Origin: a virus
Length of the DNA stretch: 20,028 nucleotides
IMG/VR virus record: IMGVR_UViG_3300020473_000169
Span: 1 to 20,028 of that record
Direction: 5' to 3' (one strand)
Position numbers and translations under genes: made by a program. The notes beneath the pieces were generated by a model. That model had not been told where the DNA came from, did no database searches, and worked only from the letters and a program-made list of their open reading frames with translations. Below are positions 2,839-19,917 of this stretch, piece after piece. The number at the start of each line of letters is the position of its first letter. Position 1 is the stretch's first letter.

Positions 2839-3318
2839 ATGAAAACAACATTTAATGAAATAATAGAAGTGGTTTTAGAACACGAAGGTGGTTATGTAAA
2901 TGATCCAGACGACGCTGGAGGTGAAACCAATTTTGGTATCGCTAAAAGATGGTATCCGGATGTTGATATAAAAAATCTCACAAAAGAACAGGCTAAAAAA
3001 ATATATCATCAAGATTATTGGAGACCTGGTAAATGTGATGAAGTTCCCCCACAATTAAGACATATTTATTTTGATATGTGTGTTAATTTTGGAAGAAGAG
3101 GAGCTGTTAAGGTTTTACAACAGGCTGCTAATTCTAAATTAAGAAATAAAATAGAAGTAGATGGAGGAATAGGTCCAGCTACATTAAAAGCTATACAAAA
3201 TGTCAGTTTAGACAGAGTAAGGGCTTATAGAGTTTTAAGATTCGCAAACATAGTTATAGACAAACCTAAACAAGAGAAATTTTGGGTAGGTTGGTTTAGA
3301 AGAGCAACGGAGGTATAA
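2839..3318 (+). CDS. GH108-type N-acetylmuramidase (phage lysozyme)
   Basis: This enzyme should cleave peptidoglycan glycan strands. Its 159 residues fit a GH108 catalytic domain followed by a short peptidoglycan-binding domain. Glu16 in the EHEGGYVNDPDDAGGETNFG motif is the expected catalytic acid; DYW (59-61) and YFDMCVNFGRRGAVKVLQ (77-94) continue the fold, and VDGGIGPATLKAI (107-119) is typical of the C-terminal domain. There is no signal peptide or membrane segment, so it would need a holin or delivery on the virion. The start is fixed by homology, since the family begins just before EGGY, yet no Shine-Dalgarno sequence precedes it. The chaperone gene follows after one base. It could be the lysis endolysin or a tail-associated lysozyme; the hub protein here shows no lysozyme domain, which leans to the latter without proving it. 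Confidence 0.9.
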   Translation: MKTTFNEIIEVVLEHEGGYVNDPDDAGGETNFGIAKRWYPDVDIKNLTKEQAKKIYHQDYWRPGKCDEVPPQLRHIYFDMCVNFGRRGAVKVLQQAANSKLRNKIEVDGGIGPATLKAIQNVSLDRVRAYRVLRFANIVIDKPKQEKFWVGWFRRATEV

Positions 3319-9002: not shown

Positions 9003-9269
9003 ATGGCAAGATATGAAAATACAAAAACTTCAAAAAAAAATAAAAATAAATATTATATGACTTCAATATATCCAGAAGTTCCTGAAAGTGATAATGATAT
9101 GTATTATATATCACAAGAAGGTGATAGGTGTGACAACTTAGCATTTAGATTTTATGGTGATTCAACTTTATGGTGGTTTATTGCACAAACAAATAAATTA
9201 AATTCAATGAATATAGAATCTGGCGTATCATTGAGAATACCGGCAGATATACCAACAGAGGTTTCTTAA
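9003..9269 (+). CDS. LysM-like small baseplate protein (tail protein X / gp53 LysM type)
   Basis: An 88-residue protein that is mostly one LysM-like fold: YYISQEGDRCDNLAFRFYGD (34-53), STLWWFIAQTNKLN, then SGVSLRIPAD. This is the pattern of P2 gpX-type tail proteins and of the LysM part of T4 gp53, which act as glue in the baseplate around the hub instead of binding cell wall. It lies between the tube-cap gene and the hub gene, exactly where X-type proteins stand in contractile tails. The stop overlaps the next start by one base (TAATG), so translation is probably coupled. The basic N-terminal tail (KTSKKNKNK) is a small extension. Confidence 0.85.
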   Translation: MARYENTKTSKKNKNKYYMTSIYPEVPESDNDMYYISQEGDRCDNLAFRFYGDSTLWWFIAQTNKLNSMNIESGVSLRIPADIPTEVS

Positions 9270-12200
9270 TGAATATAAATGCAAGAGTATTCGGTTCTCC
9301 TATTCCTAAAAAAGTTAAAAATAAGTTAGAAGCTAGACAAGAAGCTGCATCAAGAACTATAAAACCAAATGAAACTTTATACACTCGTGGAAGAGGTAAT
9401 GTGATGGTAAATCAGGGAACTACTTATGGTGATCTTCTTAACAATCAATTTGGGGGTGAAGGTGATTTATCATCAAGAACTCCTTTTGTAAGAATGTGGA
9501 CAGCAGTTCAGTTAAGAGAAAAAATAGATTATAAAGATGATCAAAAAACTTGGATGAACATAGACTGGCAAGAACCTTTAGATACTTATGAAGAAGCTGC
9601 ACGACTAGCTAAAAAATATAATGGGGGGATAGATAATTTAGATAACATAGGTGAACCTGATCCAGAAGTTGGATATCTTCTTCCAAGAACTTTTGTTCAA
9701 TATGATGATAAAACTAAAAAATATTATCTAAGACAAGAGAAACCAACAAGTCAAGATGTAGAAGGATTTGGTAAAGCAATTTATACTCTTACTACTAATA
9801 ATATACCAACACATGCAGGAGTTAATGCAAGTGGTTATGATAAATCAACTTCAATGAGTTATAATGAATGGGTTCAGGACGGAAGGCTTATAGCGGAGGG
9901 TGGTGAGATTGGGCAGGATGAAGCTTTTGAAGTATCACAAGGAAAATTTGGCAGCCAATGGCAGTCAAAAGCTTTTGAAGGTAGATGGGAAAGAGAGGGA
10001 GATACTGAAGGATATCAGAGGTATTTGAAAAATCAACAGTCTGCATATGATAAGGCTTTTCCACGAGAACATGGTGTTGAAAACGATCATAATAAATTTA
10101 TGAAACCACCAGCTGGAATAAAATCTATCAATATTAGTACAGAAGGTTCATTGGGTGTTATAAAAAAAACAACAGTAAATTTTATTGTTCATAATTTTGC
10201 TGATTTTGAAGAAATTTATATGAAATATTTTATGAGGCCAGGAGCTCAAGTTTTTGTTGATTATGGTTGGAGTAATGTACCTCTTTATAGTCCTGAAAAA
10301 ATAATGGATTTGGGTCCTGTTGGAGAATATCAATTACAAAAAATATTATTTGATTCAGAAAAAGGAATTATTCCAAAATATCAGGGTGATTTAGATACTT
10401 TAATAGGAATTGTTACTGACTATGAGTCAAGAATATTACAAGATGGTAGTGTTGAATGTAGTGTAACCATTACTTCAAAAAATATGGCTTTACTTGGAGT
10501 TGATGTAGAAGAAAAAACATCTAAAAGGATAAATTTTTTAATAGATTATACAATACAATATGAGGGATTATTTTTAAATAGTAGTCCAAATGAAAGAAAA
10601 ACCTTAGCATTTAGTATACCAAATGCAAATTCCTCAACAGTTGATATAAGGGGTTTTAAAAATGCAATAAAAAATCTTGCAGAAAAAAGTTTTGGTACTG
10701 AGTTATTGACACCTGGTGGTTATGTACAACTGTCTACTGGAATTTATGTAAATACAAAACATGATAAACAATATATAACATGGGGTTTACTTGAAGATAA
10801 ACTTTTTAATAGTGAATTTGGATTTGGGTCAGATTTAAAAAATCTAGTAGGTGTTTCAGTATCTAACAAAGCGGGTTTCGAATCAACACTCGATTCAAGT
10901 GAAACATATGTTAGGTGGGATGAAAAATTAGGAAAAAGACAAACATGGATGTCTGTAGCTGATGAAAAACCTTGCAACTGGCTTTATCCAGAAAATTGGG
11001 GTAATGTAGGAAAAGGAACATATGAAATTAGTGGATCTTTTACTAAAGGTGTACAGGATATAGACACAAGAAATGTTAGAACTTATAGTAATAGACTTGC
11101 GAAAAGACCTGATTTTGATTTTTTAATAAAAGAAGCAATTGAAAATGAAACAACTCAACCTACAACTCCACATGGAGAATATATAAGTGAAGATGAAATT
11201 AAACAAAGACTTGGTCCAGAATATTGGAGTTTTTCACATTATGGTGCTAATCCAGATTACACACCACCAACTCTTGACGATATAACAGAATATACTTGGG
11301 AAGAATTAGAAGAACATTTTTCAGAAGTTCCTAACATTGAACCGGATGGAGAACCTGTTAATTTACTTCAAATGATGAATAATCAGTTTTTAGCTATTAG
11401 AAATCAAACAATAGAAGAAGCTACTGGACTTTCAGAAAAAGAATTTAACAATTTAAAAAGAGCTACTTCACCACCACTCGGAACTGTTGGTGCTGATGGC
11501 CAATATGATCATCATCAACAATTTGAAGTTAATTTAGCAGCTAATCCTGGAGAACAGGGATATCCTGCGTTGGGAATGTGGGCTTCCGATTACACATTAG
11601 GTTATCAAACACATCAATCTGAATATGGATCCTCACAGGGATTTGCAAACACTGATATGCCTGAAGAATATTGGTGGATAGATGCATTAGACACTTCTAG
11701 ATTGGGAAGTTTAGACTTAACAAAAAAAAGATTTTGGTGGTATTTTTATGCACCAACCACTGCTTGGCTTACTATCGGAACTTCTAAAAAAACTTATGAA
11801 TCTTTCAATCCGCGAAATGAACGAAGGGTGTTCCCTACAAGAGGTGGAGGGATTCCTGCTTATATGTATGAATCAAATCCACACTTTGGGAATCCAGCAC
11901 TTGCTCATTTGGAGCCAGGTGAATCACTTGAATATTATGAAGTTGAATCAGCTGATCAATTCAGAGAAGCATTAAGACATGACTCTTTTAGAGAATTTTG
12001 GACTTCACCTTCATCATGGAGAGTCGAGGGGGCAACTGGTATGGGAATTGGTACTGGAGATGATTATGAACTCCTCCCAAATGCTGAGCAAATAACTCTT
12101 AAAAAAAGAAGAATGTTGGATTTTTTAGAAATAATTGGTATTGAACCATATCTCTCTCTTATAGAGACATTTCCAGGTAAATATAAGTATGAACAAGTTG

Positions 12201-15200
12201 ATACTAGTGCTAAACCAACTGTCACCGATGCAGCAATCACAATTCAAAATCCTATAGACTGGACAGCTGTTGATAAATATCATTCAAGAATACCTCTTAG
12301 AGAAATTTTTATTGATGTTGAGATTGTTAAAAAAGCTTTTGAATCCACTGATGAGGGTACTACAACAAAAGAGGCTATAGAATATATTTTAGAAAAAATG
12401 AATGAAGATTCTGTAGGAATTTGGGATTTAAAATTAGTTTCTGCTCCAGGAGATGATACAAGTTTATCAGTAGTAGATTATAATTTTCTGGGAAAGGATA
12501 AAAATAAGGGAAACACAACTCAACAATCTACTTATGATGAACTTTTTGTGTTCGATATTACAGGAAGAAAGTCAATTGTAATAAATTACGATTTATCATT
12601 AAATATTCCAAGTGGAAATATAGCAACAATGTTAGCTATTCAAGGTGCATCAGAAACTAATCAATCTTTTAATTTAAATGCGGATATTGATTCACATTTA
12701 GCTTTTTCAAGTGTAACGGGTAATGATAATGAGCGTTATATTCAATATTTACCTAATTTACATGGATATAGAAATTTTAGAGGAAACACAGATGATATAG
12801 TTGGACTTCAGGGTTTTGATGATATGAAACATTTTAGTAAGCAGACTATTAGAGAAACAAATGTAGCTAATAATAATTATGATCTTGTTAATGTTTCACA
12901 ACACACCGACGCGCAAGGTTACATTTATGATACAAGTACAAATGAAAAACAATCAGACAAAGCTACTATAGATGCACAAGTAAAAGTTAATGAACAGTTG
13001 CAGGCTGATCAAAGAGACAGATTAAAAGAACTTGGTTTTATAGTTACAAGTACATTTAAAGAATATTTTGATACATTAGCAATGGGGGCATATTTGAATG
13101 ATAAAGATGGTAGAGCAGCACCTCTTCATTTTTTAAAATTAACTTTAAAAGTATATGGTATATCATCGTTACAACCAGGTGATATATTCAGAGTTAATTA
13201 TTTACCAAAAATTTATTTAAATAATGTTTATTTTCAAGTCATTAAAGTTACTCATGATGTAGATCCAACTGGTTGGTATACAACTTTAGAAACGGTGTTT
13301 AGAGTTAGACCTGACAAAAAAAATGAAGCAAATATAGCTAAAACCGCAACCGACTCCAATGTTGTAATGGATTCGACAATGTTAGCTTCTATGCAAAATT
13401 TAAGTGAAGCTTCAAGAGTAGGTATGGATGTTCCTATGTTTAAAACCGACTGGTATTGGGGTGCCAACACTTCCGCCACATGGAATTATTATACAGGCTA
13501 TCAAGCTGGTAGTATAAAAGATCAACCATATGGTTCTAATCAAAAAACTAAAGAAAGACAAAAAGAATATAGAATAGATAGAGCTACAGAACTTAATTTT
13601 AAAAAATTAGCACCCTTTATTACAAAATTAAGACCTTATATTAATGACATAGTAACTGACCCAAATAGTAGAATTTCACATGGATTTGAATTTGAAGTTT
13701 GGAATACAATGACAAATCAAGATGTTGGATTACATGTTAAGACTCAAGCAGGTGGTGTGCACACCACTCTCAAAGGCTCTACCAGTGCCACTAATGCATC
13801 TGCATATCGAGCTCTTGGTGAACTTTTCCCACCTAAGGATCCTCACCCTATGGCTCTTCCAGGTACATTAAATGTTTATCCTATGATGAGTATGTGCGCT
13901 TCAGTATATATGGATGTGGATTATAATATGAAAAGTAAGGATGGACGAGGTAAAAATAACCAAGAAATAGCTAATGGAAGTATTGCTCAAAGACTTGGTT
14001 ATTTTGATAAAAAAGGAGCTGCTCATTTTAATAGTGATGTAACATCATATAAGATTCACACTAATTTATGTAGAAGGAATAGAAACAAACCACAATCTGG
14101 TGATATGAAAATATCTATTCCAGCAAATTCATCAGGATTTACAACTGCTAATTTTTGTGATTATGGGGTAATGCCCACCATTCTTAATTCTATTGCTGGT
14201 ACTAAAAAAGAAGTTTGTACAGGAACTAATAATAATGGTTTGGTAACAATGAAATTAGATAGAGTTGATGATAACGAACTTTTAAGATATAATAGTTGGA
14301 AAGATTATGGAGCTGACGATTATGGTGTAGATGAATATGTTGATAAACAAAGTTTATATTTAGGTTGGACGGGTTATAGACTTCAATATGAAGGATATAG
14401 ATGGAGACATATGCTTGAACCAGGTTATCATTCTCATTTTTGGGAGTATGGTGGAGGATGGGATGATATAGTTACTAATTCTCGGGGTAAACGATACAAA
14501 GATATATTTAATGAACATTTTCCTGTAAGAGATGAGGAGGGGTATCCAAAATCACAATTCGGTGGAAGTTGTTATAATATTGGCTGGGAGCCTGGAGGAT
14601 TTGGTCATCAAACTGATTCAGCATTTCCATATAGTAACATGACTTATGAAAGATTTAATGGAGGTCAAGTAGGTAATTGGACACCTTCATATGCAACGGG
14701 AGATAAGAAAGGTGGGATGGGAGTATATCAAAATTACCATCTTTTAAATGAGATGAAAGGTGTAGGAAGCACTCAGTGGCAAAACACTACCAATTTTCAA
14801 GGTCATGCACCATTGCAATTTAGGAAAGCCATGGCTTGGACTGCTAGAGTGCATGAGAATTTTCATTATTTTCATAAAGGAGAAAAATGGGTAATATTAT
14901 TTAATAAGGCTAAACCTCGTTCTCATTATATGTTTGTTAGAAAAGAACATTTAGAAGCAAATACAAATGGTATATATGATGTATTGTTCTCAACAGATAC
15001 ATCAGCTAAAACTGGAGTTATGATAACAGGATTTACAAACACACATGTGCCTTGGGGTGATAGTTGGACACATGGAATTGGTCCTTGGTGGATTGGTCAG
15101 GATTGGAAAAACAATTTTCAAGATACTCAAAACTTGGAATATGATTCGAGACGCGAAGATAATCCTCACCTGTTCTCCTATATGGGCACTAAGGGTGCAG

Positions 15201-15346
15201 TCGCTGTTAAATGTGCTAATGCATGTGAATATAGCCCAAATGATTGTGCTGATCCAAATAATGTACTTCCACCTGGTAATTCAAACAAAGGTGATGGTTA
15301 CTTTTGTAATGCTTCCACACATGGTTGGAATGCAATAGGTTATTAG
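9269..15346 (+). CDS. Giant baseplate hub-like protein with C-terminal module of unknown function
   Basis: At 2025 residues this is the largest gene here. Residues 1-85 (VFGSPIPKKVKNKLEARQ, SRTPFVRMWTAVQL) and 280-435 (IKSINISTEGSLGVIKKTTV, FADFEEIYMKYFMRPGAQVF, VDYGWSN) look like the gp27/gpD-type hub. Residues about 985-1110 and 1250-1347 resume a hub-like pattern (SSLQPGDIFRVNYLPKIYLN, FQVIKVTHDVDPTGWYTTLE). An insertion-like, Trp/Tyr-rich region lies at about 625-945. From about 1385 to the end the protein changes character: Trp, Tyr, His and Gly are abundant and 9 of its 11 Cys occur there, ending in CX3CX6CX19C. No lysozyme motif or catalytic site was recognised. It overlaps the LysM gene (TAATG), as in P2 X-D. 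It may be a fused hub plus tip or receptor-contact protein; that part is inference. Confidence 0.7.
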   Translation: MNINARVFGSPIPKKVKNKLEARQEAASRTIKPNETLYTRGRGNVMVNQGTTYGDLLNNQFGGEGDLSSRTPFVRMWTAVQLREKIDYKDDQKTWMNIDWQEPLDTYEEAARLAKKYNGGIDNLDNIGEPDPEVGYLLPRTFVQYDDKTKKYYLRQEKPTSQDVEGFGKAIYTLTTNNIPTHAGVNASGYDKSTSMSYNEWVQDGRLIAEGGEIGQDEAFEVSQGKFGSQWQSKAFEGRWEREGDTEGYQRYLKNQQSAYDKAFPREHGVENDHNKFMKPPAGIKSINISTEGSLGVIKKTTVNFIVHNFADFEEIYMKYFMRPGAQVFVDYGWSNVPLYSPEKIMDLGPVGEYQLQKILFDSEKGIIPKYQGDLDTLIGIVTDYESRILQDGSVECSVTITSKNMALLGVDVEEKTSKRINFLIDYTIQYEGLFLNSSPNERKTLAFSIPNANSSTVDIRGFKNAIKNLAEKSFGTELLTPGGYVQLSTGIYVNTKHDKQYITWGLLEDKLFNSEFGFGSDLKNLVGVSVSNKAGFESTLDSSETYVRWDEKLGKRQTWMSVADEKPCNWLYPENWGNVGKGTYEISGSFTKGVQDIDTRNVRTYSNRLAKRPDFDFLIKEAIENETTQPTTPHGEYISEDEIKQRLGPEYWSFSHYGANPDYTPPTLDDITEYTWEELEEHFSEVPNIEPDGEPVNLLQMMNNQFLAIRNQTIEEATGLSEKEFNNLKRATSPPLGTVGADGQYDHHQQFEVNLAANPGEQGYPALGMWASDYTLGYQTHQSEYGSSQGFANTDMPEEYWWIDALDTSRLGSLDLTKKRFWWYFYAPTTAWLTIGTSKKTYESFNPRNERRVFPTRGGGIPAYMYESNPHFGNPALAHLEPGESLEYYEVESADQFREALRHDSFREFWTSPSSWRVEGATGMGIGTGDDYELLPNAEQITLKKRRMLDFLEIIGIEPYLSLIETFPGKYKYEQVDTSAKPTVTDAAITIQNPIDWTAVDKYHSRIPLREIFIDVEIVKKAFESTDEGTTTKEAIEYILEKMNEDSVGIWDLKLVSAPGDDTSLSVVDYNFLGKDKNKGNTTQQSTYDELFVFDITGRKSIVINYDLSLNIPSGNIATMLAIQGASETNQSFNLNADIDSHLAFSSVTGNDNERYIQYLPNLHGYRNFRGNTDDIVGLQGFDDMKHFSKQTIRETNVANNNYDLVNVSQHTDAQGYIYDTSTNEKQSDKATIDAQVKVNEQLQADQRDRLKELGFIVTSTFKEYFDTLAMGAYLNDKDGRAAPLHFLKLTLKVYGISSLQPGDIFRVNYLPKIYLNNVYFQVIKVTHDVDPTGWYTTLETVFRVRPDKKNEANIAKTATDSNVVMDSTMLASMQNLSEASRVGMDVPMFKTDWYWGANTSATWNYYTGYQAGSIKDQPYGSNQKTKERQKEYRIDRATELNFKKLAPFITKLRPYINDIVTDPNSRISHGFEFEVWNTMTNQDVGLHVKTQAGGVHTTLKGSTSATNASAYRALGELFPPKDPHPMALPGTLNVYPMMSMCASVYMDVDYNMKSKDGRGKNNQEIANGSIAQRLGYFDKKGAAHFNSDVTSYKIHTNLCRRNRNKPQSGDMKISIPANSSGFTTANFCDYGVMPTILNSIAGTKKEVCTGTNNNGLVTMKLDRVDDNELLRYNSWKDYGADDYGVDEYVDKQSLYLGWTGYRLQYEGYRWRHMLEPGYHSHFWEYGGGWDDIVTNSRGKRYKDIFNEHFPVRDEEGYPKSQFGGSCYNIGWEPGGFGHQTDSAFPYSNMTYERFNGGQVGNWTPSYATGDKKGGMGVYQNYHLLNEMKGVGSTQWQNTTNFQGHAPLQFRKAMAWTARVHENFHYFHKGEKWVILFNKAKPRSHYMFVRKEHLEANTNGIYDVLFSTDTSAKTGVMITGFTNTHVPWGDSWTHGIGPWWIGQDWKNNFQDTQNLEYDSRREDNPHLFSYMGTKGAVAVKCANACEYSPNDCADPNNVLPPGNSNKGDGYFCNASTHGWNAIGY

Positions 15347-15393: not shown

Positions 15394-16716
15394 ATGGTTT
15401 ATATTGTAATACCTATATATTCAGACCCATTCTTGCATCCAATGCATAAGAATAACAAGTTATCTTTGCTTTATGTTAGGGAAATTCATGGAAACGATGT
15501 GGATAATTGGGATTCATCAAAGAGTTATATATTACCTCAAAAACATCCAGACTCAAAAGAATATATGGTTGACTATTCATTTTTAGAGGATGGACTTATA
15601 TTCACACCTGATTCTAAAAAATTACAACCAATATTTAAAGAACATAAGAAAGTTGGTGATGTGAATATTGCTTATTGGTGGAAATATGGAAAACCTATGG
15701 ATTTAGAAGTAAGAAATAATGCAATAGATTTCTTGAGTAATAAGTTCTACAATGTAAAAAAACTCAACGAAATAGTACCAATTTCGAAACATAAAGAGTA
15801 TTGTGATGAAGTATCAGAAAGAATAATAGACTTCTTAAAAAAAGATTTAAATGGACTTATAAATGATGAAGGGTGGTTTCACGAGAATGGTAATACTGAA
15901 GCTATTCAAGCTTTCCATAGTATAGAAAAGAATGGTGTAAAAGTATCAGATGATGTGTGTGACATATTTGATGTGAGAGTAAAGAAACATATATCAGATG
16001 GTAAATTATATAGTAATTACAATCTAACTACAACAACAGGTCGTCCAAGTAATTCATTTGGAACTGTTAATTTCGCAGCTCTTCCACCCGAAAAACGAAG
16101 GGCTATCATACCTGAAAATGACTATCTTGTTGATTTTGATTTCGATGCTTATCATTTAAGATTGATTGGAAACTTGGTTGGATTTGATTTTGATAGTGGA
16201 GGTTGGGAAGATAAATCTGTTCACGAATACTTTGCATATAGATATGGTTGTTCATATGAGGAATCAAAACAAAAGACATTTCAGATATTATATGGTGGTA
16301 TTCGTAAAGAACACGAACAAATATCATCTTTTTTCCCAAAAACATTAGATTATATTAATAAAAAATGGAGAGAAATAAATACACATAATTGTGTTTTTAC
16401 TGATATTTATAGACGGAAACTATTATTCGATAATTACGAGGACTTGAATAGAAACAAGTTATTTAACTATTTGATACAGGCTTATGAGACAGAATCAAAT
16501 ATTAAGAAGATTTTATCTATTCAAGACTATTTATATAATAAGAAGACTAAATTGGTTTTATATGGATATGATAGTTTCCTATTCGATTTTTCAAAACAAG
16601 ACGGAGTAGAAATTTTGACGGAAATTAAAAACATCTTAGAAAGAGAAAATCAACTCACCAAATCCAAAATGGGTTTGAATTATGGTGAAATGCAAGACAT
16701 TACAAAGAGGTTATAA
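15394..16716 (+). CDS. Family A DNA polymerase-like protein with altered motif residues
   Basis: The C-terminal 230 residues keep the order of family A (Pol I) motifs. TTTTGRPSNSFGTVNFAALP (212-231) matches the TGR region; motif A is DFDAYHLRL with Asp249 and Arg256; motif B is KQKTFQILYGG with Lys292, Phe296, Tyr300 and Gly301; motif C is YGYDSFLFDF with Asp393. Both metal-binding Asp positions are thus kept, but compared with E. coli Pol I the motif A Glu is His254, the motif B Arg is Tyr288, and HDE has become YDS. Residues 1-200 show no 3'-5' or 5'-3' exonuclease motif. At 440 residues it is a minimal or divergent polymerase core. A replication enzyme inside a tail cluster is unexpected; T4-like phages normally replicate with a family B enzyme. 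Activity cannot be judged from sequence. The next gene begins immediately after its stop. Confidence 0.75.
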   Translation: MVYIVIPIYSDPFLHPMHKNNKLSLLYVREIHGNDVDNWDSSKSYILPQKHPDSKEYMVDYSFLEDGLIFTPDSKKLQPIFKEHKKVGDVNIAYWWKYGKPMDLEVRNNAIDFLSNKFYNVKKLNEIVPISKHKEYCDEVSERIIDFLKKDLNGLINDEGWFHENGNTEAIQAFHSIEKNGVKVSDDVCDIFDVRVKKHISDGKLYSNYNLTTTTGRPSNSFGTVNFAALPPEKRRAIIPENDYLVDFDFDAYHLRLIGNLVGFDFDSGGWEDKSVHEYFAYRYGCSYEESKQKTFQILYGGIRKEHEQISSFFPKTLDYINKKWREINTHNCVFTDIYRRKLLFDNYEDLNRNKLFNYLIQAYETESNIKKILSIQDYLYNKKTKLVLYGYDSFLFDFSKQDGVEILTEIKNILERENQLTKSKMGLNYGEMQDITKRL

Positions 16717-18864
16717 ATGAATACTTTACTCGATAAAATATTGACAGAATGGGCTTACCGCGTTGATAATGGTATGCCTAATCCAAAGAATCCATTACAT
16801 ATAGTTCAACTACGAGAGTCAATGGAATATTTACAAATACCTGAAAGAGTTATAGATGGATTTGTTAATAACTTGACAGAACAAAAATTTTATGCTAGAA
16901 ATCCGAAAGGTAATAAAATAAGTGTATTTACTAACAAAGATAATTATGATAAAGCATTAAAAGGTGGATATAAACATGTTGATTCTGAAGAAGCTGAAAA
17001 GGAATTAGGCAAACAAGGTGAGGAACCTGAAGGTAAATCAAAAGAACAACCTAAAGAAGAACCACCACAAACAAAAAAAGGTATGGATATTAAAGATAAT
17101 CCATTTGGTAAAGATAGTGAAGATTCAAGAGATTCAAAAGGAAGAAATATCAGCAATGAAAATAAAAAAATAGTTAGTGATTTTGATAAAAGAGTAAATG
17201 ATAGAATTGATAATTTAAATGGTAATCAAAAAGAATTAGTGAAAGGTGCTTTGGATAAAATAAAAACTTTATATGATGATGGTGCTTCTGAAGAATCACA
17301 AATAGAATCTGCTCAATGGTTAGTTGATAATATGGGATTTACTACAAATGCTAATGGTAAAAAGGCTTATTTTAATAAATTAGGGGGTAACAGAAAAATC
17401 ATATCAGGTGATGCTGGAACTGCAAAATCAGCTAATCTTGTAAGTAAGGTATCATCATTAGTTGAACTAAATACATTTGATGCGAAAGGAACTAAACAAG
17501 GATTTACTACAGCTGCTAAACCTGATTTGGGTGATGATAACATTGTTAAACCAAAAGATGATAAGAGGGTAGCAGATTATTTTTCTAGACATCCAATACT
17601 TCAAAAAATACGAGGTGGATTACATGGTATATATGGTGTTATAGGTGAAGATGGGAAAATAAAAATGCCAAGTAATAAACATTCAAAAGATTATTTGAAA
17701 CAAAGTTTTAATAATCCAGCTCTTCAGAATACAATAGATTTTGCTAAAGAACAAGTTGAATCTGGTAATGTGGATGGGGGAGTTCTTACATCTTTAGAAA
17801 ATCATCAAAATAATTTAAGTAGTATTTTAGATAATTATGAAATACCAAGTGAAGAAGCTCAACAGGTCATTGCTAATAGTTATAATGATTTGATGGTAGG
17901 TTTACATAAAGCGGATTCTGATATCGCTAATTCAATTATGAAACAAATTGCTGAGAACAATTTATATGAACAAGAGTTAGCTAGAGGTGAAGAAGTTTAT
18001 TTACCATCGGCCGGTAATTTCCCAGCCGGTGATAAGATAAAAGGTGGAACTACTGAAAGAGTTGCATTGGTTAGTTGTAAGTTTGGAAAAGCTGGTAGAA
18101 TTTATGGTTGTCCTGCTAATTCAAAAACTATTTGTGAATTACATCCAAATGAATCTAAAAGAAATAATCAAGGACAATATCTTGGTGAAAAAGGACACAC
18201 ATTGGTTATCAACGATAATTTAATAAAGGGTGAAAGTAAAATAGAAACCAAAGAAAAAACAAAAAAATTTATTGAAGATTCTTTGAAGGAAGTTAATTTA
18301 AGTGACACATTTTCTGATGAAGAAACAACAGAAATAGCTAACATAACATCTGATTATATGGAAGACATTGATAGGATTAGAAAAGAAGTTTCTAATACGA
18401 ATCCACCGGATGTAACTGCATATTGGAAAGAATTTGGTAAAAGAGTATCAGAAATTGAAGATGATTATAAACAAAGAATGGGTAAAGTTATTACCAAAGA
18501 ACATGCAACTGCTTTAATAGGTGAAAATAATGTTCCAAATTTAGTTCAAAAAGGTGGAGTAAAGATTGAAGCACTTATGTCAGCTATTGAAATTGCAAAT
18601 AATATTAGAACAAATAATTCTTTAAATGAGTTGGAACATAATAAACAATATTATGATGAAAATGGTGAACCTAAATTTGTTACTGATAACGGAAATCAAA
18701 ATCCAAACGATTATTCAATAACATTTAGAACTAAAAGAACTGCTGGTAGAACTGGTGGTGGTTGTCAACTATCATTTACAGGTGATGGAACACCTCCAAA
18801 AAATAATTTACAAGATGATGGTAGTTTAACAGATTCTCAAACTGGTGATGAGGTGGAAGTATAA
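16717..18864 (+). CDS. Large conserved-looking phage protein of unknown function
   Basis: I do not recognise a function. The 715-residue protein begins LLDKILTEWAYRVDNGMPNP then KNPLH, a pattern I associate with uncharacterised proteins of marine T4-like phages (from memory, not checked). Residues 95-150 are a charged Glu/Lys/Gln/Pro linker of low complexity. The middle includes KIISGDAGTAKSANLVSK (227-244); it superficially recalls a nucleotide-binding loop but is not a proper GxxxxGK[ST] motif. Three Cys cluster at 454, 465 and 473 (VSCKFGKAGRIYGCPANSKT then IC), a possible metal or disulfide site. The C-terminus is Gly/Asp-rich and acidic. An AGAGG site lies just before the ATG, which abuts the polymerase-like gene's stop; the stop overlaps the next start (TAATG). 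The tight coupling suggests a shared role with both neighbours, possibly a virion protein. Confidence 0.7.
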   Translation: MNTLLDKILTEWAYRVDNGMPNPKNPLHIVQLRESMEYLQIPERVIDGFVNNLTEQKFYARNPKGNKISVFTNKDNYDKALKGGYKHVDSEEAEKELGKQGEEPEGKSKEQPKEEPPQTKKGMDIKDNPFGKDSEDSRDSKGRNISNENKKIVSDFDKRVNDRIDNLNGNQKELVKGALDKIKTLYDDGASEESQIESAQWLVDNMGFTTNANGKKAYFNKLGGNRKIISGDAGTAKSANLVSKVSSLVELNTFDAKGTKQGFTTAAKPDLGDDNIVKPKDDKRVADYFSRHPILQKIRGGLHGIYGVIGEDGKIKMPSNKHSKDYLKQSFNNPALQNTIDFAKEQVESGNVDGGVLTSLENHQNNLSSILDNYEIPSEEAQQVIANSYNDLMVGLHKADSDIANSIMKQIAENNLYEQELARGEEVYLPSAGNFPAGDKIKGGTTERVALVSCKFGKAGRIYGCPANSKTICELHPNESKRNNQGQYLGEKGHTLVINDNLIKGESKIETKEKTKKFIEDSLKEVNLSDTFSDEETTEIANITSDYMEDIDRIRKEVSNTNPPDVTAYWKEFGKRVSEIEDDYKQRMGKVITKEHATALIGENNVPNLVQKGGVKIEALMSAIEIANNIRTNNSLNELEHNKQYYDENGEPKFVTDNGNQNPNDYSITFRTKRTAGRTGGGCQLSFTGDGTPPKNNLQDDGSLTDSQTGDEVEV

Positions 18865-19265
18865 TGAAATCACAACTACTATGTACATTCTCAACTAAAA
18901 AAGATATAGAATCAACTATAGCTACCATATCTTCTGCTTATACAATTATGTTTAACAAGATTTATGTATTACAAAATGAAGATAATACAAATGAATTGAT
19001 ATGTACATATAATGTAGATATAGGAAGTGGTATAGACTATAACGCGGTTAGTGGTACAATATCACTACATAGAAAGAAACATTCAAATACACTATATACA
19101 ATAAATGCATTAAATGAATGTGTAAAGAATTTAAATAATGGTGTTATGGATGAAAAATTTATGATACCATGGGAAAACTTTAAGAATATGTTAATGGTAA
19201 CAAATTCAGATGGTTTGAATAAAATTAATACAAGAATATATAAAATCATAAAAATAAATGAATAG
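18864..19265 (+). CDS. Small protein of unknown function, translationally coupled to the 715-residue protein
   Basis: A 133-residue protein of mixed alpha/beta character with no signal peptide or membrane segment. LLCTFSTKKDIESTIATISS then YTIMFNKIYVLQNEDNTNEL suggests a helix followed by strands, and NVDIGSGIDYNAVSGTISLH then RKKHSNTLYTINALNECV and MIPWENFKNMLMVTNSDGL look like conserved blocks. I believe similar unnamed proteins occur in other marine T4-like phages, but this is memory, not a search. No catalytic motif is evident. Its ATG shares one base with the upstream stop (TAATG), so it is probably translated by reinitiation. A 49-base gap with the recurrent AT motif follows. Confidence 0.75.
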   Translation: MKSQLLCTFSTKKDIESTIATISSAYTIMFNKIYVLQNEDNTNELICTYNVDIGSGIDYNAVSGTISLHRKKHSNTLYTINALNECVKNLNNGVMDEKFMIPWENFKNMLMVTNSDGLNKINTRIYKIIKINE

Positions 19266-19314: not shown

Positions 19315-19917
19315 ATGGCAAAAGATAAAAAACCAAAAGAAGTTATAGAAGAAGTAAAATCTACAAAAGAAGAATCAACATTATATTATTTTACATCAAC
19401 TGGATGTGCTTTTTGTAAACAATTAGATCCAATTATTGAAGAATTAAATAATGGTGATTATAATATATTAAAGCTTGATTTATCTGAAAAAGATAATGAA
19501 GGCTTAAAAAAAGAAGTACAAAAAGAATATGATATAAAATGTGGAACTCCTTTATTGGTAGATGTTAAAGATGGTAATTTTGTTTGTGGTTATCGAGAAA
19601 AAGACTTAATTGAAAAGTGGGCTAAAGGTGAAAAAATACCAACCCCTCCAAAACCTAAAAGTCCTCCACCAAGACCACCTTTTGATTTTAATAATGAAAT
19701 ACAAGTTAGTTCTTGGAAAAAACAATATAAAATATGGGCAAAGGAAAATAAACATCTTCCTAATATACCTACTACAGAAGATATGCTTAATAGGTTAAAA
19801 GCACAATATAATAGTAGACAAAGTCAAAACAAAATAAATGAAAAGACTACTGAACAAAGAATAAGTTCGTTAGAAAAAAAGATAGATAAATTAATGAATC
19901 ATCTTGGAGTTCGATGA
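19315..19917 (+). CDS. Thioredoxin-like protein with proline-rich linker and C-terminal coiled coil
   Basis: Residues 20-105 are a thioredoxin fold: STLYYFTSTGCAFCKQLDPI carries the redox pair Cys31 and Cys34 (CAFC), the strand ILKLDLSEKD follows, and Thr78-Pro79 in CGTPLLVDV is the expected cis-proline turn. Two more Cys (76 and 91) lie near the active-site face. Residues 109-122 are a proline-rich linker (PTPPKPKSPPPRPP), then a helical part and a probable coiled coil at about 176-195 (EKTTEQRISSLEKKIDKLMN). T4's own thioredoxin-like NrdC is only about 87 residues, so the C-terminal half is an addition that could anchor the domain to another protein. It has a strong ribosome site and an upstream copy of the AT motif. 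Disulfide exchange is the likely chemistry; the substrate is unknown, the Cys-rich hub tail being one candidate. Confidence 0.85.
   Translation: MAKDKKPKEVIEEVKSTKEESTLYYFTSTGCAFCKQLDPIIEELNNGDYNILKLDLSEKDNEGLKKEVQKEYDIKCGTPLLVDVKDGNFVCGYREKDLIEKWAKGEKIPTPPKPKSPPPRPPFDFNNEIQVSSWKKQYKIWAKENKHLPNIPTTEDMLNRLKAQYNSRQSQNKINEKTTEQRISSLEKKIDKLMNHLGVR

Follow-up and report, generated by a model that had tools for sequence, protein, structure and literature searches.

A predicted thumbless relative of family A DNA polymerases and its constant small neighbour in uncultured tailed phages

The locus and its gene order

The window (the whole stretch of DNA analysed, a 20,028-base virus record that is G000 in our set) carries a gene for a 440-residue protein that we call mini-PolA. 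The preliminary description placed it within the tail cluster. Genes for the tail sheath, tail tube, baseplate hub and wedge, assigned using PHROGs, and for an endolysin do lie upstream, and the mini-PolA reading frame starts 47 bases after that of a 2025-residue protein, but the gene is better described as sitting where the baseplate and replication modules meet. One relative of the window, the 67-kb record G005, has a mini-PolA that is 59% identical (among the matches listed). In 272 of 286 loci, the gene upstream of mini-PolA in G005 has a homologue at a distance of no more than 4 kb; these and the other locus counts given here are not independent, because some contigs were fetched twice and sequences overlap between scans. 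The endolysin (Glyco_hydro_108 and PG_binding_3; window 2839-3318) is encoded between the tail tube and baseplate hub genes. The T4-type late-promoter motif TATAAATA occurs 7 times in the window against 5.0 expected and gave no signal.

Table 1 Features in and around the mini-PolA gene of the window.
Feature	Position	Strand	Basis or detail
2025-aa protein, tail/baseplate side of junction	9269..15346	+	Upstream-gene homology, upstream PHROGs
mini-PolA, predicted thumbless family A polymerase relative, 440 aa	15394..16716	+	ORF, alignments, AF2 model
Exonuclease-like domain without DEDD residues (residues 1-173)	15394..15912	+	Bst alignment, conserved columns
Thumb remnant (residues 181-217)	15934..16044	+	Spacer of 20-40 versus 123-222 residues
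Motif A (residues 249-256)	16138..16161	+	D249 = D705; H254 at the E710 steric-gate place
Motif B, O helix (residues 288-301)	16255..16296	+	Y288 = R754, K292 = K758, F296 = F762, Y300 = Y766
Motif C, Y-D-S (residues 392-394)	16567..16575	+	= H881-D882-E883
715-aa protein, variable, encoded between mini-PolA and p133	16717..18864	+	Locus comparison
p133, conserved partner of ~130 aa (133 aa in the window)	18864..19265	+	Linkage; AF2 model
Thioredoxin-domain protein, not constant	19315..19917	+	PF00085, E 4.9e-5; phrog_22

Across the relatives the gene order, with names that outside annotated records are putative and were assigned from sequence, is baseplate gene, mini-PolA, a variable gene or none, a small gene that we call p133, other genes, SSB, RecA, 5'-3' flap exonuclease, DnaB-type helicase, ribonucleotide reductase with others, and PolB. 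SSB was found within 5 kb in 169 of 180 loci and RecA in 156 of 180. Of 28 long records, 27 encode a flap-exonuclease domain, and the exception (G025) ends about 3 kb after mini-PolA. When 50,697 phage records were searched using tblastn, the SSB of the module was found in 119 and its flap exonuclease in 1917; as both also occur in phages without mini-PolA, they give no evidence of a dedicated partnership. The phages immuto and Mel-JY01 have genes for DnaG-type primases, so a primase role would be unnecessary in those two genomes, and the idea of mini-PolA as a primase replacement is weakened accordingly.

Several further genes were observed in these regions. In Mel-JY01, the gene annotated as 'DNA polymerase I' (TIGR00593; L003:25144-26184) is by Pfam a stand-alone 5'-3' flap exonuclease, and a 428-residue protein with an S-adenosylmethionine lyase domain (L003:21757-23043) is encoded near the replication module. 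The immuto genome has queuosine/7-deazaguanine genes, along with one for a DpdA-like transglycosylase. In G002, an IMG/VR phage contig of 131,840 bases, a 939-residue SusC-like protein (L161:7200-10019) with TonB-receptor Plug and carboxypeptidase-regulatory domains has its gene within the replication region, where the helicase gene lies on one side and the PolB gene on the other.

The 715-residue gene starts directly after the mini-PolA stop codon, and its product showed no meaningful Pfam or PHROG family. A profile grown from this protein found a match within 3 kb in 136 of 264 loci. The p133 gene comes immediately after that of mini-PolA in 109 of 330 loci, and the 715-residue gene is therefore an insert and not a partner. 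The suggestion of a dedicated pair was thus aimed at the wrong neighbour: it fails for the 715-residue protein and is supported for p133 by the linkage and co-occurrence described below. An N-terminal motif of the 'EWAYRVxxGMPNPKN' type is often shared by the genes that come next after mini-PolA (window 16717-18864, L026:7279-8880, L158:7643-8902), but from phage to phage they differ in body and length (533, 419, 787, 655 and 715 residues), as in a variable, cargo-like slot.

A thioredoxin gene is found within 3 kb in 44 of 264 loci. The T7 polymerase holds thioredoxin through its thumb. We considered the window protein as a T7-like processivity factor and set this aside, since the gene is not constant and the binding thumb is missing.

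Fold, missing parts and active site of mini-PolA

Used as a single query, the window protein matched no PDB sequence and could not be assigned to any meaningful family in Pfam or PHROG. Among PDB entries, a 19-row family profile matched Pol I (best E 1.5e-4), 12 of the 19 members matched Pfam DNA_pol_A (best 4.6e-11), and residues 180-440 aligned to a PolA profile with E 2.7e-16 (hhalign, profile-profile). We obtained 396 mini-PolA matches, of which 372 were full-length once 24 partial ones had been removed; they include at least 289 unique full-length relatives, and reduction below 70% identity left 70 representatives. The reading frame, the motif order and the substitutions named in the preliminary description were confirmed, with residues equated by profile alignment to 12 reference PolAs (E. 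coli Pol I and 11 phage PolAs, a small sample).

An AlphaFold (AF2) model built from 110 sequences (pLDDT 94.1) superposed on KlenTaq (4n56_A) with Z 27.1 and an rmsd of 3.1 A over 357 residues (VIA-align). Against the Bst fragment 402 residues aligned, with model residues 1-434 running onto Bst 314-876. These superpositions place a palm in the model and make the N-terminal part the counterpart of the exonuclease domain. The model has the palm and fingers of family A, and the motif A and C Asp, the O-helix Lys758 and Tyr766 equivalents occur in order in all 70 representatives. On both sequence and model, mini-PolA is a real, conserved family A polymerase relative. Its carriers are many uncultured tailed phages, mostly marine and freshwater. 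A genome collection search gave 6 matches, all on contigs in metagenome bins, and 6 of the 50,697 phage records contain the gene; the immuto copy is annotated merely as 'DNA polymerase family A' and that of Mel-JY01 as 'hypothetical protein'.

Two features of a canonical enzyme are missing. Between the Gly before the thumb and the Arg668 equivalent there are 20-40 residues in 289 mini-PolAs versus 123-222 in the 12 references. Judged from these alignments, the thumb expected of a canonical Pol I or T7-type enzyme is essentially gone, which had been overlooked earlier. Two other stretches are also shorter, from motif A to B (33-44 versus 42-70 residues) and from Tyr766 to motif C (87-94 versus 106-143). 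The DEDD exonuclease residues are kept by 12/12 references, and no equivalent D/E set was found among the conserved N-terminal columns of mini-PolA. The earlier statement that no exonuclease is present is thus right for the residues but not for the fold, which retains an exonuclease-like N-terminal domain. This domain has a conserved set of its own, consisting of P129 and of H15, H51, D/E53, K75, D89, K132 and E135, which stand amid otherwise variable residues 1-135 (window 15394-15798). A stand-alone RNase_T exonuclease, considered as a companion, was present in only 1 of 8 records.

The catalytic residues are retained. D249, K292, Y300 and D393 (equivalent to D705, K758, Y766 and D882 of Pol I) are invariant in 70/70 representatives, as are R217 (R668) and Q362 (Q849), and F296 (F762) is Phe in 69/70. 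Around them the pocket is altered: E710 is replaced by His (H254) and H881 by Tyr (Y392) in all 70, and R754 by Tyr (Y288) in 67. The 12 references keep E710, R754 and H881 without exception, and each of the three is present in 63 of 64 immuto-type full-size PolAs, so that mini-PolA departs from canonical Pol I and T7-type enzymes at all three places. The immuto-type PolAs (NC_055915.1, L501-L580) have Leu at the F762 place in 63/64. Ser (46) or Ala (24) occupies the E883 place in the mini-PolA representatives (S394 in the window protein). This change is ordinary, because the references also vary there (Ser in 5, Ala in 3, Gln in 1 and Glu in 3). Of the motif C changes reported earlier, it is therefore only the replacement of H881 by Tyr that is unusual; for phage PolAs it is normal that the E883 place is non-acidic. 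The dN/dS ratio was 0.03-0.39 with a median of 0.12 (2100 pairs), and 0.20-0.27 in five pairs involving the window protein; the family is therefore under purifying selection with the altered pocket fixed. As read from these comparisons, the altered residue set is an old, selected signature and not decay.

A second polymerase and its constant partner

To place mini-PolA within whole replication systems we used 28 long records, picked from the scans by length and all found through mini-PolA itself. A separate full-size polymerase is encoded in 25 of them (17 PolB, 8 PolA). The first eight records comprise seven with PolB and immuto with a separate PolA of ~778 residues; the twenty further records have PolB (10), a PolA of ~780 residues (7) or neither (3). 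In the three without a second polymerase, G018, G024 and G025, the sequence after mini-PolA runs for only about 4, 17 and 3 kb, respectively. Relatives of matching type have their second polymerase some 24 kb or more downstream, an expected place that the three records do not reach. In G005, PolB is encoded about 12 kb downstream of mini-PolA on the same strand. The count covers relatives, as the record of the window breaks off before reaching a gene of this kind. In the relatives tested, gene content indicates that mini-PolA is a second polymerase and not the sole or main one.

A tree of 240 columns united 26 mini-PolAs in one clade (UFBoot 100, stem 1.67) apart from the 12 references, none of which has the E710, R754 or H881 changes. 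The phylogeny thus places mini-PolA outside ordinary phage PolAs. Together with the separate full-size polymerases, it upholds two earlier proposals: that another enzyme replicates these genomes (the three records without one end early) and that mini-PolA does something else.

The constant neighbour is p133, the gene of which overlaps the 715-residue gene by one base. Where 3 kb or more of downstream sequence was available, p133 lay downstream of mini-PolA in 262 of 264 loci; where there were 5 kb or more it did so in 180/180, and 28/28 long records contain it. Reciprocally, among the matches listed for p133, mini-PolA was present in 27/27 loci with at least 5 kb upstream, and in 32/33 and 34/38 at a reach of 3 kb and 2 kb, respectively. 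By tblastn, p133 occurs in six of the 50,697 phage records, and these are the same six that contain mini-PolA. Pairwise distances of the two proteins correlate at 0.92 (partial correlation 0.80 given SSB and RecA), and SSB and RecA pair with each other (0.91); these values come from 105 non-redundant loci out of 192, after 87 near-identical ones had been dropped.

One set of records is free of the bias of searching with mini-PolA: 11 records reached through the immuto-type full-size PolA and picked by length from 80 loci. Seven contain both mini-PolA and p133 and four contain neither. Three of these four end within 4-13 kb upstream, and the fourth, G031, has about 41 kb. Because G031 lacks both genes, mini-PolA and p133 may not be strictly required. 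They could also be co-inherited core genes of one clade whose products do not touch.

In a 55-row alignment of p133, H69, R70, K71, K72, N75, Y78, T79, N81 and N84 are invariant or nearly so. The AF2 model (pLDDT 93.2) is that of an alpha/beta protein. By sequence p133 has no meaningful Pfam family and only chance-level PDB matches (best E 0.06). By structure nothing rose above noise: an ACT/ferredoxin-like fold was considered, and the best Foldseek E was 0.16 and the best Z 6.6, the latter over residues 1-70. As the fold gives no confident match, a DNA-binding role for p133 is a guess.

What mini-PolA may do

We infer from the sequences and the model that mini-PolA polymerises DNA. The reading that we favour, and that we consider about an even call, is that in a large group of T4-like phages it is a dedicated second, distributive polymerase for short patches that works beside the replicase, with p133 supplying grip. 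Distributive synthesis, with few nucleotides added per binding event, would be expected because the thumb that holds the duplex is absent. The missing grip on DNA would be replaced by p133 or SSB, and p133, with its conserved basic HRKK motif, and/or the neighbouring SSB would bring mini-PolA to DNA. Together with the flap exonuclease, SSB and RecA, each encoded by its own gene in this module, mini-PolA would do the work of Pol I from separate parts. It would close the short gaps that are left once primers are removed, or those at intermediates of recombination and repair, as PolB (or the full-size PolA) meanwhile copies the genome. T4 matures its Okazaki fragments without a second polymerase, so this job need not call for one.

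The altered pocket raises the matter of substrate. In Pol I, R754 and H881 face the incoming nucleotide or the primer end, and R754 matters for dNTP binding. E710 is described in PMC9324360 as the ribonucleotide steric gate and as mattering for dNTP binding in Pol I. As both E710 and R754 matter in this way, the activity of mini-PolA on dNTPs could be poor or different, and on sequence grounds the His and two Tyr may allow a changed choice of substrate. If the chemistry itself had changed, mini-PolA could be a ribonucleotide-tolerant, primer-making or template-independent polymerase with p133 as its second subunit; the three replacements are fixed as a set at places facing the nucleotide or primer end, the steric gate among them, and loss of the thumb removes the grip on the duplex. 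We nevertheless think this improbable: F762 stays Phe in nearly all representatives, R668 and Q849 are kept, immuto and Mel-JY01 have DnaG-type primases, and His is itself bulky and could still exclude the 2'-OH. In a bolder form that we likewise doubt, mini-PolA and p133 would be a new type of two-subunit polymerase in which the thumb was discarded, grip comes from p133 and the rebuilt pocket (a His gate and two Tyr) changes the choice of nucleotide or primer end. Ribonucleotide-tolerant patching and primer extension are examples of what such a pocket may serve, and the exonuclease-like domain, in which an H/H/D-E/K/D/E set is conserved, may form another altered active site.

An equally unlikely reading makes mini-PolA a translesion or recombination-repair polymerase that is loaded by RecA or SSB under DNA damage, in the manner of Pol theta or DinB. 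The absence of proofreading residues and thumb and the frequent proximity of SSB and RecA are consistent with this, but the distances of SSB and RecA follow a pattern separate from that of the mini-PolA/p133 pair, and translesion polymerases usually retain a little finger or thumb that grips DNA.

The favoured gap-filling role and both of these readings assume an active enzyme. The preliminary description allowed for loss of activity and a structural role, that is, a palm protein with no catalysis that is retained as a scaffold or as part of the virion. The adjoining baseplate genes and the altered neighbours of the active site would suit such a protein, but we judge it very unlikely, as some loss would be expected in a dead enzyme, and the catalytic Asp pair and the Lys758, Tyr766, Arg668 and Gln849 equivalents are invariant in a family under purifying selection. 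Its place as the first gene before the replication module and the immuto annotation notwithstanding, an ordinary replicative polymerase misread because the region is short is scarcely credible and already refuted for the relatives tested, given the separate full-size polymerases and the missing thumb and proofreading residues.

Mini-PolA shares with E. coli Pol I and the Taq and Bst large fragments the palm and fingers, the motif order and D705, D882, K758, Y766, R668 and Q849. It differs from them in lacking the thumb and DEDD residues, in the E710, R754 and H881 replacements and in having the flap nuclease as a separate gene. Its polymerase domain is homologous to those of replicative phage PolAs (T7, T5-like, SPO1-like, HMO-2011 and immuto gp199). 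The 11 phage PolAs compared are 609-1086 residues long (the longest is cut at its 5' end) and have a thumb and proofreading residues; mini-PolA forms a separate clade and coexists with such an enzyme in immuto-type phages. Because the thumb, the steric-gate Glu and the DEDD residues were looked for and are absent, we class mini-PolA within the family A superfamily as a lineage that has diverged, and not with the canonical Pol I or replicative PolA enzymes. Human Pol theta and Pol nu, which were among the structure matches, are family A repair polymerases that likewise occur beside separate replicases, but they have large thumb insertions rather than a loss, and canonical motifs. In group 2.2 jumbo phages, a minimal DNA polymerase III alpha accompanies a T4-like PolB, according to PMC7824862; it resembles mini-PolA as a stripped-down second polymerase beside PolB and differs in having a Pol beta type fold, split in two genes and not homologous to mini-PolA. 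We found no description of the mini-PolA module in the literature searched, a search with most subscription papers outside its scope, and a term search of the text of PMC7077304 returned none of 'immuto', 'DNA polymerase' and 'T4-like'.

In the textbook picture, a family A polymerase has a thumb and a steric gate formed by Glu. A lineage that has neither, yet is widespread and under selection, provides a direct test of what those parts do. The combination of mini-PolA with a complete replicase and one fixed small partner gives a handle on why large phages keep two DNA polymerases and, if active, this polymerase core of only 440 residues may be of practical use.
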